Shown here in pieces: positions 43,366 through 48,811 of a stretch of 64,000 bases of DNA. Position numbers and translations under genes: made by a program. The notes under the pieces are model-generated. The model was not told where the DNA came from, did not search any database, and saw only the letters and a list, made by a program, of their open reading frames with translations. The stretch's first letter is position 1; the number at the start of each line of letters is the position of its first letter. The stretch is from assembly GCF_900148835.1 (NCBI RefSeq), contig NZ_FRYK01000001.1, positions 248,001 to 312,000 on the forward strand. Direction: 5' to 3'. Source of the stretch: Flavobacterium cucumis. Its GTDB lineage: Bacteria > Bacteroidota > Bacteroidia > Flavobacteriales > Flavobacteriaceae.

Positions 43366-44829
43366 CTATTTATTCAATTGTTGTAATAACTCCGTTACTG
43401 TTTTTAAATCGTCAAAATCATGACGAACTCCATTAATTTCTTGATACGTTTCGTGACCTTTTCCCGCGATTAAAATAATATCGTTTGAATTGGCTAATTG
43501 ACAAGCTGTTTTAATAGCTTGTTTTCTATCTAAAATGGCAACTGTTTTTTTGAAATTTTGAGGTTCTACTCCTTTTTCCATTTCTTCAATAATCATTTCT
43601 GGATTTTCGGTTCTTGGATTATCTGACGTAAAAATAGCCTTATCACTCATAGATGAAGCAATGTGAGCCATGATTGGTCGTTTTGTTTTATCTCGATCGC
43701 CACCACAACCCACAACCGTAATTAATTGCTCGTTTTTAGTACGAATATCTTCTATCGTTTTTAATACATTTTCCAATGCGTCTGGTGTGTGAGCGTAATC
43801 TACAATTGCTGTGATTTTCGAATTAGAAACAATAAATTGAAAACGTCCTGAAACACTTTCTAATTCAGAAAGTAAACGTAAAGCTTCCATTTTTTCGATA
43901 CCTAATTCAACGGCAACTCCATAAATGGCTAATAAATTATACGCATTGAACGAACCAATTAATTTTACCCAAACTTCTTGGTCATTGATTTTTAACAACA
44001 ATCCAGACAATTGGTTTTCTAGGATTTGGGCTTTGTAATCAGCATACGATTTTAAAGCATAGGTTAGTTTTCTTGCTTTCGTATTTTGAAGCATTACCAA
44101 TCCGTTTTTGTCATCGATATTGGTAATGGCAAAAGCCTCTTTTGATAAATTATCGAAGAACGATTTTTTCACATCACGATATTCTGCAAATGAATTATGG
44201 TAGTCTAAATGATCGTGTGATAAATTCGTAAATACGCCACCTTCAAAACGTAACGCCTCGGTTCTTTTTTGATGAACACCATGCGAAGAAACTTCCATAA
44301 AACAAAATTCGCAACCTTGTTGTACCATCAAATCTAAATACTTATTGATTGTTAAAGAATCTGGCGTTGTGTGCGTAGCTTTGAATTCTTGTTCGTCAAC
44401 CATAATTTTAACAGTTGATAACAATCCAACTTTATAACCTGCTTTTTTGAATAATTGATATAATAAAGAGGCAATCGTTGTTTTACCATTTGTTCCCGTA
44501 ATTCCAACTAATCTGATTTTTTCAGAAGGATTTTCATAGTAATTAGCCGTTAAATATGCTAAAGCTTCGTTGGAATCCTTAACTCTAATATAAGTAACCC
44601 CATTAACTAGAATACTAGGAAACTCCTCACAAATTATCGCAATCGCACCTAAATTTAATGCTTTTTCAATATAATCATGACCATCAGAAAGTGTTCCCTT
44701 GATGGCTACGAAAACGTCATTCAATTCAATTTTTCTAGAATCGAATTCAATTTTTGAAACGACAACATCGGTAGCGCCATGAACTGCTTCAATGTGTACT
44801 TTATATAATATATCTTTTAATTGCTTCAC
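43366..44829 (-). CDS. murE: UDP-MurNAc-tripeptide synthetase MurE (meso-DAP type)
   Basis: MurE adds the third stem residue. The 487-residue enzyme has the ATP motif GITGTNGKTTIA (109-120), the carbamylated-Lys region HDHLDYH, and TSDNPRTENPEMI, whose DNPR motif marks meso-diaminopimelate as substrate. It overlaps ftsI by 4 bp and is followed by a 58-bp gap containing short TTTAAAAGTTTA-type words. Confidence 0.97.
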   Translation of the reverse strand: MKQLKDILYKVHIEAVHGATDVVVSKIEFDSRKIELNDVFVAIKGTLSDGHDYIEKALNLGAIAIICEEFPSILVNGVTYIRVKDSNEALAYLTANYYENPSEKIRLVGITGTNGKTTIASLLYQLFKKAGYKVGLLSTVKIMVDEQEFKATHTTPDSLTINKYLDLMVQQGCEFCFMEVSSHGVHQKRTEALRFEGGVFTNLSHDHLDYHNSFAEYRDVKKSFFDNLSKEAFAITNIDDKNGLVMLQNTKARKLTYALKSYADYKAQILENQLSGLLLKINDQEVWVKLIGSFNAYNLLAIYGVAVELGIEKMEALRLLSELESVSGRFQFIVSNSKITAIVDYAHTPDALENVLKTIEDIRTKNEQLITVVGCGGDRDKTKRPIMAHIASSMSDKAIFTSDNPRTENPEMIIEEMEKGVEPQNFKKTVAILDRKQAIKTACQLANSNDIILIAGKGHETYQEINGVRHDFDDLKTVTELLQQLNK

Positions 44830-46808
44830 GATAATTCAATTATGATAGTTTGATTTTTATTAAAAGCTTGTCCCGATGTAAGTGATTGTTTTTTCACTCT
44901 TCCTATACCTTTTACTTTCACTTTTAATCCTAAATTTTCTAATAAGGCAACAGCGTCCATTCCGTCCATTCCTTTTACATTTGGAACAATTTGTTCTTCT
45001 CTCTCTACTTTTTTATAATATTCTGAGTAGTTTTTTTCTTGAGAAACAACTTTTGCATCTATATTTTTTACGTGATTCATTGATGGTGAATCGGTAAAGA
45101 TTTTTTGTGCAATTCTTTTGAAAACAGGTCCTGCAACATCAGCTCCGTAATATCCAGCGGCAACATTTGGCTTATGAACCACGATAATACAAGAATATTT
45201 TGGTTCATCCGCAGGGAAGTAACCTACAAAAGATGAAGCATAATAGAGTTTCGACTTATCTTTATAATTTACTTGAGCTGTTCCTGTTTTACCTGCCATA
45301 GAGAAATCCTTCGAGTATAACCTAGAACCCGTTCCTCTTTTTATGACATTTTCTAAAACCGCTTTTACTTTATCTAATGTTTCTTGCGAGCAAATTTTCG
45401 GGTTGATAACTTGGGTATCAAATTTTTTGATAGTTGTATTCCATTCCTTTATTTCACTTACAAAAATAGGCTTCACCATAACACCGTTATTTGCTACAGC
45501 ATTATAAAATGTTAACGTTTGCAAGGGGGTAACTGACAATCCGTAACCAAAAGCCATCCAGGGCAACGAGACCCCAGACCATCTATCCGTTCCAGGTTGT
45601 GGAATGAATGGTTTTCCTTCACCTCTTATTGGTAATCCAAGTGGTTTGTTTAATCCGTAACTGTTAATTCTCTCAACAAATTGTTTCGGATTACTTTTAT
45701 AACTATCATAAACCGATTTTACTAAAACCGTATTGGAAGAAAGTTCAAAACCTCTTGCCAAAGAAATCTTCCCATATCCACCGGCTTTTGAATCTCTAAC
45801 TTTACGTCCATAATATTCAATTACACCATTATTAGAATCATAAACCGTACTTGTATCTGCTTTTTTATCATCTAAAACCGCAATCAAATCAATTAATTTA
45901 AAAGTCGAACCAGGCTCATGAGATTCAGTAATGGCATAATTTTGCGTTTCATAATACGACCCATCCTCAGCTCTTCCTAAATTTGAAATCGCCTTGATGT
46001 GACCCGTCTTGGTTTCCATAACCACCACACAACCGTGATCAGCACTATAATGTTCCAATTGTTTTAATAAGGCATGATGTGCAATATCCTGAATGTAAAC
46101 ATCTATTGTAGAAATTATATCATAACCATCTTGAGGCTCTTTTTCATTTACATCATTAATAGGTTTCCACTGATTTTTTGCAATTTTTTGCATCATTCTG
46201 TGGCCATTTTTCCCATTCAAATAATCACGAAAAGCGTACTCTAATCCTTTACCATCTTCGTTTGAACGCTCATATCCTATGGTTCTTTTAGCCACTAATC
46301 CTATAGGATGCTCTCTAACAATTTTTTGTTCTATGATCAATCCTCCTTTGTTTGCTCCTTTGTTGAATAATGGAAACGATTTGATTCGCATTTGTTCCGT
46401 ATAACTCAATTTTCTAGCAATAAACAAATAGCGATTTCTATTGGAACGTGCTTTCTGAAACTTAGCTTGATAATAACCCGAAGATTTTCCTAACATCACA
46501 GCAAGCGAATCAGATAGCGCTTGAAGATTATCTTTGAAAAGTTCGGAAGAAGGGGCAACCGCATCAAAATAAACTGTATATTCAGGAATCGATGTCGCCA
46601 ACAAACTCCCATCTGCAGAATACACATTCCCTTTGTTAGCAGGAATAGTAAAGTTTTTTACAGTTCTTTCTTTTGCTAATTTCCGGTAATACGAGCCTTC
46701 AACCCACTGAATATTATTGAGTTTTATCAAAATGAAGACAGCCATCATGAAAAACATGAAAGCTACAAAATACATGCGGTACGATATTTTTTTATCTTCT
46801 ACTGCCAT
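44826..46808 (-). CDS. ftsI: Penicillin-binding protein 3 / FtsI transpeptidase with PASTA domain
   Basis: FtsI cross-links septal peptidoglycan in the periplasm together with FtsW. The 660-residue protein has an N-terminal membrane helix (about 10-29), a dimerisation domain (about 45-215), and the transpeptidase with active-site Ser301 in GSTFK (300-304), the SSN motif (FELSSNTVLVK) and KTGTAQ near 510. A single PASTA domain (about 605-660, VPNVKGMDGMDAVALLENLGL) ends the protein. It overlaps ftsL by 10 bp and murE by 4 bp. Confidence 0.97.
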   Translation of the reverse strand: MAVEDKKISYRMYFVAFMFFMMAVFILIKLNNIQWVEGSYYRKLAKERTVKNFTIPANKGNVYSADGSLLATSIPEYTVYFDAVAPSSELFKDNLQALSDSLAVMLGKSSGYYQAKFQKARSNRNRYLFIARKLSYTEQMRIKSFPLFNKGANKGGLIIEQKIVREHPIGLVAKRTIGYERSNEDGKGLEYAFRDYLNGKNGHRMMQKIAKNQWKPINDVNEKEPQDGYDIISTIDVYIQDIAHHALLKQLEHYSADHGCVVVMETKTGHIKAISNLGRAEDGSYYETQNYAITESHEPGSTFKLIDLIAVLDDKKADTSTVYDSNNGVIEYYGRKVRDSKAGGYGKISLARGFELSSNTVLVKSVYDSYKSNPKQFVERINSYGLNKPLGLPIRGEGKPFIPQPGTDRWSGVSLPWMAFGYGLSVTPLQTLTFYNAVANNGVMVKPIFVSEIKEWNTTIKKFDTQVINPKICSQETLDKVKAVLENVIKRGTGSRLYSKDFSMAGKTGTAQVNYKDKSKLYYASSFVGYFPADEPKYSCIIVVHKPNVAAGYYGADVAGPVFKRIAQKIFTDSPSMNHVKNIDAKVVSQEKNYSEYYKKVEREEQIVPNVKGMDGMDAVALLENLGLKVKVKGIGRVKKQSLTSGQAFNKNQTIIIELS

Positions 46809-47155
46809 ATTTTTAATTTATCCCAAAAACTCTTTTTATTTTCTCGACTCTCAACAACTATTTTTACAGGTGGCACTTCTGACGGAAAGATATTACGCTC
46901 TTCCATTTTTTTAGCCACTGTAGATTCCATTTTTAACTTCATCAATTCGGAACGACGGTCTACAAATTCGGAACGTAATTCTTTTACTTGATTCGTTAAT
47001 TCGGTAATTCGGTAATTTTTCGCATCGTATTGATGATTGTTTGCAATAGCCATCATTCCTAAGATTACTAAAAAAACGATGAATTTCCAGTTCTTAAGAG
47101 CGTCATCACTTATAAGAAATTTTGCTTTTAATAAACCGTAGATGCCGTTTTTCAT
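46799..47155 (-). CDS. FtsL-like cell division protein
   Basis: The 118-residue protein has one membrane helix (about 24-41, WKFIVFLVILGMMAIAN) and a coiled-coil region (about 50-85, ITELTNQVKELRSEFVDRR), the plan of FtsL. Sequence similarity in this family is weak, so the position between rsmH and ftsI in the dcw cluster is the main argument. FtsL joins FtsB and FtsQ in the periplasm to activate FtsWI. It overlaps ftsI by 10 bp. Confidence 0.85.
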   Translation of the reverse strand: MKNGIYGLLKAKFLISDDALKNWKFIVFLVILGMMAIANNHQYDAKNYRITELTNQVKELRSEFVDRRSELMKLKMESTVAKKMEERNIFPSEVPPVKIVVESRENKKSFWDKLKIWQ

Positions 47156-47161
47156 GTATTG

Positions 47162-48070
47162 CTATATTTTTTCTGCTACTCTTAGTTTTGCACTTCGTGC
47201 TCTATTGTTTGATGCTATTTCCTCTTCTGTAGGAACAATTAATTTTTCAATAATCTTGAAAGGAACTTTGAAATTTCCAAAAAAATCTCTTTCGGGCTCT
47301 CCTTCAAACATACCATTTCGCATGTAACGTTTTACCAATCTGTCTTCTAAAGAATGATAGGAAATAACACTCAGTCGTCCGCCAGGTTTTAAAATCTCAA
47401 GTGATTGTTCTAAAAACTCTTTCAAAACATCCATTTCCTGATTTACTTCGATGCGAATGGCTTGGTATATTTGAGCTAAAATTTTATTGCTTTTATGTCC
47501 AGGCAAAAATTTCGCCAACACTTTTTTCAATTCATCCGAATTTCGGATTTCTTTATCTTTTCGAGCGATCACAATTACGTTTGCCATAGCTCTGGCATTT
47601 TTTAATTCGCCATAATCAAATAAAACTCTCGCTATATCTTGTTCGTCATATTCATTAACCACATGAAACGCACTGACTTCTCCTTTTTGATTCATTCGCA
47701 TATCTAACTCGGCATCAAAACGAGTTGAGAAACCTCTTTCTGCTACATCAAATTGGTGCGATGAAACCCCTAAATCAGCCAAAACTCCATCCACTTGCTT
47801 AATTCCATGAAAACGCAAAAAACGTTTTATAAATCTGAAATTCTCATTAATCAAAGTAAAACGTTCGTCGTCTATTGCATTTTTTAAAGCATCTAAATCT
47901 TGATCAAAAGCGAATAGTTTTCCATTTTTACCTAAACGACTTATAATTTCTCTCGAGTGTCCGCCGCCGCCAAATGTTACATCTACATACACTCCATCAG
48001 GACGAATACTCAATCCATCAACCGTTTCTTTTAACAATACTGGATTATGATATTCCATTTTCGTCGTCAT
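47162..48070 (-). CDS. rsmH: 16S rRNA (cytosine1402-N4)-methyltransferase RsmH
   Basis: RsmH uses SAM to methylate C1402 in the decoding centre of 16S rRNA. The 302-residue protein begins MEYHNPVLLKETVDGL after a few residues, has the SAM motif VDVTFGGGGHSREII (about 28-42), DLGVSSHQFDVAERGFS, and the C-terminal SYHSLEDRLVKRYMR. Both ATG 48070 and ATG 48058 are possible; both overlap the mraZ end, so translational coupling is likely in either case. Confidence 0.96.
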   Translation of the reverse strand: MTTKMEYHNPVLLKETVDGLSIRPDGVYVDVTFGGGGHSREIISRLGKNGKLFAFDQDLDALKNAIDDERFTLINENFRFIKRFLRFHGIKQVDGVLADLGVSSHQFDVAERGFSTRFDAELDMRMNQKGEVSAFHVVNEYDEQDIARVLFDYGELKNARAMANVIVIARKDKEIRNSDELKKVLAKFLPGHKSNKILAQIYQAIRIEVNQEMDVLKEFLEQSLEILKPGGRLSVISYHSLEDRLVKRYMRNGMFEGEPERDFFGNFKVPFKIIEKLIVPTEEEIASNNRARSAKLRVAEKI

Positions 48071-48515
48071 TAAAATTACCCATTACTTCTTCTGCCAAAT
48101 CTGCGAAATCATCCGTAGCGTTTTCAATCGCATTTTCGTATTTATCTTTATCCCAAATCTCAATAATATTAATGGCTGAATTCAACACAATATCTTTATC
48201 AATTTGACCAAAAACCACTAAATCTTTCGGAATTAAAAGTCGCCCTGTCGCATCAATTTCTATCATTTTAACTCCTGCTGTAAACCTTCTAATGAAATCA
48301 TCGTTTTTTTTATTAAAACGATTTAGCTTATTGATTTTCAACATCATCTTATTCCATTCCTCCATTGGAAACAACTCCAAACAAGGCTGAAAAACCGAAC
48401 GTTTCAAAACGAAACCCTCTTCTAAAGAACCCAATTGTTTCTTTAGCGAAGTCGGCAGTAGCAACCTTCCCTTGGCATCTACCTTACATTCGTATGTCCC
48501 GATTAACGTTTTCAA
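48045..48515 (-). CDS. mraZ: Transcriptional regulator MraZ
   Basis: MraZ is an AbrB-like ring-forming DNA-binding protein that represses the dcw cluster and often its own promoter. The 156-residue protein has two SpoVT/AbrB-type halves (IGTYECKVDAKGRLLLPTSLKKQLG at 4-28 and VKMIEIDATGRLLIPKDLVVFGQ near 82-104), each with the DxxGRxxxP signature. It leads the dcw cluster. Directly upstream are a -7 box and three adjacent 10-bp GTGG repeats, the expected layout of its own operator. Confidence 0.97.
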   Translation of the reverse strand: MKTLIGTYECKVDAKGRLLLPTSLKKQLGSLEEGFVLKRSVFQPCLELFPMEEWNKMMLKINKLNRFNKKNDDFIRRFTAGVKMIEIDATGRLLIPKDLVVFGQIDKDIVLNSAINIIEIWDKDKYENAIENATDDFADLAEEVMGNFNDDENGIS

Positions 48516-48542: not shown

Positions 48543-48550
48543 CAAATTTA
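48543..48550 (-). promoter_or_regulatory. -7 box (TAaaTTTG) of the dcw cluster
   Basis: The minus strand reads TAAATTTG, 27 bases before the mraZ ATG. The MraZ-type repeats end 8 bases upstream of it, so bound protein would cover the -33 region. Confidence 0.7.
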
Positions 48551-48558
48551 GAAAAAAA

Positions 48559-48588
48559 TTACCACTTTTTACCACAAACTACCACTTT
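48559..48588 (-). promoter_or_regulatory. Three tandem 10-bp GTGG repeats, probable MraZ operator
   Basis: On the minus strand the units are AAAGTGGTAG (48588-48579), TTTGTGGTAA (48578-48569) and AAAGTGGTAA (48568-48559). They are contiguous with one repeat per helical turn. MraZ in other bacteria binds short G-rich direct repeats with 10-bp period upstream of mraZ; in Mollicutes the box is AAAGTG-like. The rest of the 48516-48853 intergenic region shows only AT-rich sequence and a weak TATATTTG box for the next gene. Confidence 0.78.
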
Positions 48589-48811
48589 GTTAATAAGTTT
48601 TTTGAATTCAAAACCGCGAATTCATAGTTTTAACAAAAGAATATTTGTAAAATAAAGATTTAAGAAGAATTGAAACTTTACAATCAATCCATAAAAACCC
48701 CATAGATTGAACTTAAATCATGACAAAATTGTTGATAACTAAGCTTTTACATCTTCTAAAAAACTAAAAAAAACCTTATTATTTTTTTCTTTACTTTCAT
48801 CAATAAAATAG

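Follow-up and report, generated by a model that had tools for sequence, protein, structure and literature searches.

The mraZ promoter and its GTGG array

The window, the whole 64-kb stretch of DNA that was analysed, contained a dcw cluster on the minus strand. The product of its first gene, mraZ, was matched by TIGR00242 with 107.7 bits (cut-off 98.35) and by Pfam PF02381 (MraZ). Its identity to MraZ of the nearest Flavobacterium relatives reached 96% (best 80 of 576 confirmed). To judge by its sequence, the second open reading frame is presumably mraW/rsmH, and the next three are presumably ftsL-like (46799-47155), ftsI-like (44826-46808) and murE-like (43366-44829). The features of the locus were the following.

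43366..47155, minus strand: further dcw genes, from open reading frames
47162..48070, minus strand: second dcw gene, mraW/rsmH, from open reading frame and position
48045..48515, minus strand: mraZ with TTG start, first dcw gene, from open reading frame, TIGR00242 and PF02381
48543..48550, minus strand: -7 promoter box TAAATTTG, from sequence, 8 nt downstream of the GTGG array
48559..48588, minus strand: putative MraZ operator AAAGTGGTAG / TTTGTGGTAA / AAAGTGGTAA, from sequence, conservation and the published core
48588..48596, minus strand: proximal DnaA-box-like 9-mer TTATTAACA, separated by 2 nt from the first GTGG
48588..48602, minus strand: conserved block AAACTTATYAACAAA, which holds the proximal 9-mer, from column conservation
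48730..48738, minus strand: distal DnaA-box-like 9-mer TTATCAACA, lying 142 bp further upstream

On the minus strand, AAAGTGGTAG (48588-48579), TTTGTGGTAA (48578-48569) and AAAGTGGTAA (48568-48559) followed each other without gaps. The reading AAACTTATTAACAAAGTGGTAGTTTGTGGTAAAAAGTGGTAATTTTTTTCTAAATTTG was followed by 27 nt and then by the mraZ TTG start. The interval 48543-48588 comprised the GTGG array and the -7 box, and the initial annotation of three head-to-tail 10-bp GTGG units, one per helical turn and 8 nt from the mraZ -7 box, was confirmed in the sequence. The box is of the TAnnTTTG type of -7 promoter boxes. A sigma-70 scan, which does not cover this promoter type, returned four promoter-like sites; every one was on the plus strand, and their number did not exceed that in shuffles. 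The pattern GTGG-N6-GTGG-N6-GTGG occurred once in the window, where 0.01 was expected from dinucleotide shuffles, and the GTGGT-N5 array was present in one copy in the whole genome of 2,854,482 bases (reversed control 0). Other MraZ targets in the genome were searched with the GTGG triple at one mismatch, which was found in three places, the exact one and two more, versus two in the reversed control. The two extra triples look like chance because their count was close to that of the control.

Conservation was assessed in three sets of mraZ upstream regions. The close set of 81 consisted of the window and the best 80 of at least 576 confirmed candidates and was phylogenetically redundant. The order, taken as Flavobacteriales, was sampled with upstream regions from 90 of the 96 genomes with an mraZ match (118 searched). 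The outside sample came from 70 of 120 non-order genomes with an mraZ match (148 searched, 137 matched, 17 of these being order members). Six upstream regions were kept despite a failed quick start-motif check; the sequence downstream of them reads like MraZ N-termini. The other strand served as control for the GTGG array, since a reversed array still reads as an array. Among the order genomes listed, no mraZ was found in those of f12, f13 and f16, and this holds for all f16 genomes of 0.3-0.6 Mb, whose size suggests insect symbionts; two more genomes were without a match. The codon aligned to the first mraZ codon of the window (48515) was TTG in 76, GTG in three and ATG in one of the best 80 of 576 loci. 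TTG, the predicted start, appears to be a conserved rare start codon of these close loci (L001-L080).

The GTGG triple with the same spacing was present in 81/81 upstream regions of the close set (window and best 80 of 576), and two T columns in the TTT core of the -7 box were invariant there. Absence of the repeats near mraZ in close relatives had been named as the finding that would speak against an operator, and the opposite was observed. Phylum-wide, the triple was detected in 79/160 upstream regions and on the other strand in 0/160. By rank, it was present in 11/11 genomes of the genus, 8/10 of the family, 41/69 of the order, 9/17 of the class and 10/53 of the phylum. A period-10 GTGG pair was found in 140/160 regions versus 19/160 on the other strand. 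Within the order, triple and pair accounted for 60/90 and 88/90 (other strand 0/90 and 12/90). A Bacteroidota MraZ box of this form, said in the initial annotation to be rarely described, is thus common.

The MraZ box of Mollicutes was reportedly described by Fisunov et al. in 2016. Units one and three of the array fitted a core of (AAAGTGKN3)3, and unit two differed only by TTT for AAA. This core is the Mollicutes MraZ site given in passages of PMC5282649. AAAGTG-type boxes were named for Mollicutes in the initial annotation. The locus combined several features of an MraZ operator: a GTG(G/T) core, a 10-bp period, a position at an mraZ/dcw promoter, a genome encoding MraZ and conservation upstream of mraZ in relatives. 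Solved MraZ structures exist (1n0e, 9qlg, 9sx6, 9qlr). Because the array matches the published Mollicutes site and is kept in 81/81 close upstream regions, its reading as an MraZ operator is well supported, with binding as a prediction. The initial proposal of a likely MraZ operator therefore stands on the Mollicutes core, a genuine mraZ and conservation. It was incomplete, as it omitted a DnaA-box-like 9-mer locked to the array.

A DnaA-box-like 9-mer locked to the array

The window letters of 48588-48602 are AAACTTATTAACAAA, a stretch more unusual than the array itself. The block AAACTTATYAACAAA filled the 15 columns (-15 to -1) that directly precede the first GTGG, and 13/15 of these were invariant in the close set (window and best 80 of 576). 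The variable columns were box position 5, with T in 67 and C in 14 sequences, and the last column, with a single T for A. TTATYAACA was present in 81/81 sequences of this set. Information in the flank amounted to 0.09-0.90 bits in columns -45 to -24 and 0.72-1.37 bits in columns -23 to -16, the latter being the place of a fourth GTGG in many relatives. In 48/81 members of the close set, for example L034, L041 and L045, this fourth GTGG preceded the first at a distance of exactly 21 bp; it was absent in the window. The layout looks as if the 9-mer had replaced one unit of a longer MraZ array.

The distal 9-mer was embedded in TTAGTTATCAACAATTTT, a string conserved between the window and its 17 nearest loci (L001-L017), whose flanks differed. 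Two TTATYAACA within 400 nt upstream were found in only 23/81 sequences (window and best 80 of 576), which makes the distal 9-mer a feature of the closest clade.

The core TTATYAACA resembles a DnaA box, with box position 5 as its free position. The loose DnaA-box consensus is TTATNCACA/TTWTNCACA; TTATTAACA shows differences at positions 5 and 6. The consensus box of E. coli is TTATCCACA (PMC8203912, PMC11317965, in the passages seen), from which the dominant 9-mer departs at position 6 and often also at position 5. A literature search for the letter strings TTATTAACA and TTATCAACA listed matches that look unrelated by title.

A composite, defined as TTWTNNACA 0-14 nt upstream of a GTGG array, was detected in 83/90 order genomes and in 10/12 families. 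With the box reversed, the count was 0/90, and with its reverse complement 2/90. Outside the order the composite was found in 3/70 genomes (class 3/17, phylum 0/53) and was missing in 67/70; the three matches are at chance level, as the class controls gave 1 and 4. The slot of the 83 composites was filled by TTATTAACA in 31, TTATCAACA in 29, TTATAAACA in 6, TTATCCACA in 6 and TTTTCAACA in 5 genomes. The rest held TTATTCACA (2), TTTTTAACA (2), TTATGAACA (1) and one sequence with N. Variation over the order fell on box positions 3, 5 and 6 and included the E. coli consensus; C at position 6 was present in 8/83 composites (6 TTATCCACA, 2 TTATTCACA). The 7/90 order genomes without the composite were L191, L197, L200, L228, L235, L236 and L238, that is, all f6 and f9 genomes examined (three genomes) plus four others. 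L200 kept the box with only one GTGG, and L235 and L238 showed a changed last box base. The pattern TTATYAACANAGTGG was present in 25/25 genus genomes, once in each and twice in the window's own, and in 2/15 other-family genomes; the reversed pattern gave 5 matches in 4/40 genomes.

The spacing of the composite followed the helical turn. The gap between the box and the nearest GTGG (n = 83) was 2 nt in 50, 12 nt in 28 and 1, 3 or 13 nt in 5 genomes. The distance from the box end to the -7 box was 36-38 nt in 20/21 f1 genomes (37 nt in the window), the other f1 genome being boxless. It was 47-48 nt in 19/19 f5 genomes, one helical turn longer than in f1. The same helical face was kept despite one inserted turn, which suggests a protein-protein or DnaA-polymerase contact and not mere neighbourhood.

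9-mer sites at dnaB and upstream of rnr

Upstream regions of dnaB were used from 29 of 30 genomes searched, G034 giving only a weak match. A 9-mer pair preceded dnaB in all 15 genomes of the genus and in 5/8 others of the family, and the reversed control gave 1/29. The spacing was 20-21 bp in 19/20 pairs and 35 bp in one, so that the 20-21 bp pair was found in 19/23 family genomes. The pairs were absent from 3/8 other family genomes and from 6/6 other order genomes. The apparent pair of G044, the sole order-level case, had a spacing of 2 from overlapping T-runs and was rejected as spurious. The first box of the pair was TTATCCACA or TTATTCACA in three family genomes. The second box was followed by NNGTGG, as at mraZ, in the window's genome only (1/29 dnaB loci; L085/L284, G000:C6:32080-32114). 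A further pair, TTATCAACA/TTATTAACA 13 bp apart, was located at G000:C9:769699-769720 (L088), preceding a gene beside a dprA-like gene. The product of the gene after this pair looks like a protein with an HU domain and a SPOR domain.

The GC skew of the window's own genome was calculated in 10-kb bins over 464,000 bases, comprising 20 stretches around rnr and the window. It switched from -0.100 to +0.068 at C9:806,001, with four positive bins before and one negative bin after this position as noise. The densest TTATNNACA cluster of the 464,000 bases was located at C9:806,276-806,482 with four boxes, three of them TTATTAACA; the runners-up had three. Counting TTATYAACA alone, this cluster held three, followed by the mraZ promoter (48588, 48730) and C9:769,699 with two each. 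The region G000:C9:806276-806482 upstream of rnr (L089, L397, L421) is the putative oriC of the window's genome. An origin at dnaA was rejected, as the two TTATNNACA of the own-genome dnaA locus fall inside the neighbouring gene. Tight same-strand box triplets were also dropped as an origin signature; none was found in 12 genomes, and skew with two-strand clustering was used instead.

The relative G067, assembled as one contig of 3,465,871 bases, was sampled with 40 stretches (786,586 bases), of which the second 20 were placed near the minimum of a coarse skew. Its skew turned from -0.108 to +0.09 at 2,546,102 (10-kb bins). A few bins before and after this point had the wrong sign, and signs were mixed between about 2.60 and 2.67 Mb. 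The sample had its densest TTWTNNACA cluster at 2,546,899-2,547,401, with four TTATTAACA, one TTATTGACA and two TTTTCAACA. This cluster was located between an rpiB-like gene and rnr (by TIGR02063). The whole sample contained 33 copies of TTATTAACA. Enrichment over the sample was slight (TTWTNNACA 833 vs 766 in the control, TTATCAACA 22 vs 22), so that only the clustering speaks.

Upstream regions of rnr, about 1,200 nt each, were used from 29 of 30 genomes searched, G031 showing only weak matches. Against the reversed control, they contained 20 vs 0 TTATTAACA, 9 vs 1 TTATCAACA, 6 vs 0 TTATCCACA and 52 vs 17 TTATNNACA overall. At least two TTATNNACA were present in 12/29 genomes (genus 4/6, other family 7/9, other order 1/14). 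The other 17/29 had none or one; the genus members G122 and G040 had none, and G044 alone of the 14 genomes outside the family had more than one. The cluster was mostly found in genus and family genomes, which makes the rnr location a family-level feature. A distance of 134 bp between two opposed boxes was common to G000, G078, G067 and G073, and a further box 25-26 bp on was shared by G000, G078 and G073. In the rnr upstream region of G044 (family f5), TTATCCACA occurred twice and TTATTAACA once. These boxes are compatible with an Ori-Finder prediction for Elizabethkingia, given in passages of PMC8994065, that has three boxes within one mismatch of TTATCCACA.

The window's genome encodes a DnaA with conserved domain IV. 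The recognition helix read DHATVLHAC in 20/22 order sequences, DHSTVMYAC in both f5 genomes and DH[TS]TV in four sequences outside the order; the helix pattern gave no helix in 4/30 DnaA loci. E. coli DnaA has Thr where the 20/22 have Ala. Co-variation of the helix with box position 6 was considered and found inconsistent, as f5 has Ser yet still A at position 6. Passages of PMC11317965 state that E. coli DnaA prefers box pairs 2-3 bp apart and that 19/32 single consensus boxes in E. coli were without a DnaA peak. Pairs 2-3 bp apart were found neither at mraZ, which has a single proximal box, nor at dnaB, where the boxes are spaced by 20-21 bp. This speaks against the DnaA reading, as does the missing rnr-upstream cluster of 17/29 genomes.

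Probable composite control of the dcw promoter and known systems

At the level of sequence, an MraZ-type array upstream of the -7 box is established together with a 9-mer of the same letters as the putative origin boxes, in a helical phase kept across most of the order. An origin-type 9-mer beside an MraZ array suggests that DnaA may also act on cell-division genes. The element is probably a DnaA/MraZ composite control site of the dcw promoter, with binding deduced from the sites. An MraZ oligomer would bind the three GTGG units, cover the -33 region and repress its own operon, the repression being transferred by homology. DnaA would bind the 9-mer on the same face, about 55 bp upstream of the transcription start, the latter being an estimate from the promoter type. 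Occupancy by MraZ and by DnaA would not be independent; since the sites are only 2 nt apart, joint occupancy would be cooperative or competitive. DnaA may stabilise the MraZ-closed promoter and then leave or change its nucleotide state around initiation. The supply of division gene products would be coupled to the start of replication.

According to passages of PMC8475190 and PMC7761207, MraZ controls its own operon by way of the repeats and is a repressor in E. coli, and higher dcw transcripts are given for an M. genitalium mraZ mutant (PMC8475190). The mycoplasma protein is described as an activator (PMC7761207, likewise from passages), so repression is not assured here. We lean slightly towards co-repression by DnaA, an activating or MraZ-displacing role being almost as likely. 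On balance, we incline to the wider reading that one order couples replication initiation to division, with DnaA and MraZ on a helically phased site heading dcw, and that DnaA boxes of the family also control dnaB in a replication-division circuit.

The block AAACTTATYAACAAA might instead extend the MraZ site, as the stretch that separates a fourth GTGG from the remaining ones; the locus would then be a plain MraZ operator with no second protein. The fourth GTGG in 48/81 members of the close set (window and best 80 of 576) fits such a layout, the 9-mer being a possible spacer for a skipped unit. The 9-mer was kept in 81/81 of the same sequences and is free only at box position 5, it is an exact TTATCCACA in six order genomes, and it recurs in places that lack an MraZ array, namely the skew switch and the dnaB upstream region, which makes this alternative unlikely. 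Chance, or a feature of promoter composition without any regulator, might be thought of for an AT-rich promoter in which one-mismatch triples are at control level. With the triple in 81/81 close upstream regions (window and best 80 of 576) while flanking columns vary, and in 79/160 regions phylum-wide (opposite strand 0/160), such an origin of the repeats is scarcely conceivable.

Two further alternatives concern the protein at the 9-mer and its effect. Another replication or division regulator of the order, with the origin cluster and the dnaB pair as its sites too, would account for a favoured TTATYAACA that differs from the E. coli consensus and for a pair spacing unlike the E. coli DnaA rule (PMC11317965, in part). 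Against it, the sites cluster at the skew switch, the expected place of DnaA action, TTATCCACA itself occupies the sites at mraZ, at dnaB and upstream of rnr in some genera, and the conserved DnaA domain IV is present; we consider another regulator quite improbable. A genuine DnaA box could also serve only as a titration or nucleoid site that leaves dcw transcription unaffected, and there is a precedent in the E. coli boxes within ftsQA, which later turned out to have no action on ftsZ transcription (PMC8203912, from passages). Titration has no need for the strict phasing with MraZ units and promoter that is kept over the order, and a purely titrating box is accordingly an outsider among the readings. 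DnaA/MraZ composite control is the reading preferred here.

The lock between the DnaA-type box and the operator of the main division cluster, kept through most of the order, offers a concrete promoter for testing how replication start is tied to cytokinesis. The 9-mer also points to the likely origin and to the DnaA-box form of the genus.

The array resembles the Mollicutes MraZ box, in which a core of AAAGTGG plus 3 nt forms three head-to-tail 10-bp units at the mraZ promoter (PMC5282649, in part). Unlike there, unit two begins with TTT, and a DnaA-box-like 9-mer precedes the first GTGG at a fixed distance of 2 nt. The single site agrees with M. genitalium, for which passages of PMC8475190 give one MraZ site in the genome, at the mraZ promoter. 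The sites of E. coli and Burkholderia cenocepacia are similar in their GTG repeats at an mraZ promoter controlling the dcw operon, and the four 7-nt units with 3-nt spacers of B. cenocepacia have the same 7+3 layout. In both species the MraZ site is placed downstream of the -10 box, whereas the array here is upstream of the -7 box (all from passages of PMC7761207). DnaA boxes in promoters of cell-cycle or division genes are known from C. crescentus ftsZ, B. subtilis ftsL and E. coli mioC and nrdA, and the passages of PMC8203912 and PMC11317965 mention no MraZ array beside those boxes. E. coli DnaA sites are pairs 2-3 bp apart (PMC11317965, in part), unlike the single proximal box at mraZ. No description of an MraZ/DnaA composite was met in the titles, abstract starts and passages searched, in which subscription journals are poorly covered. 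The MraZ box itself is known, and its composite with a DnaA-type box, together with the role proposed for DnaA, appears to be new.
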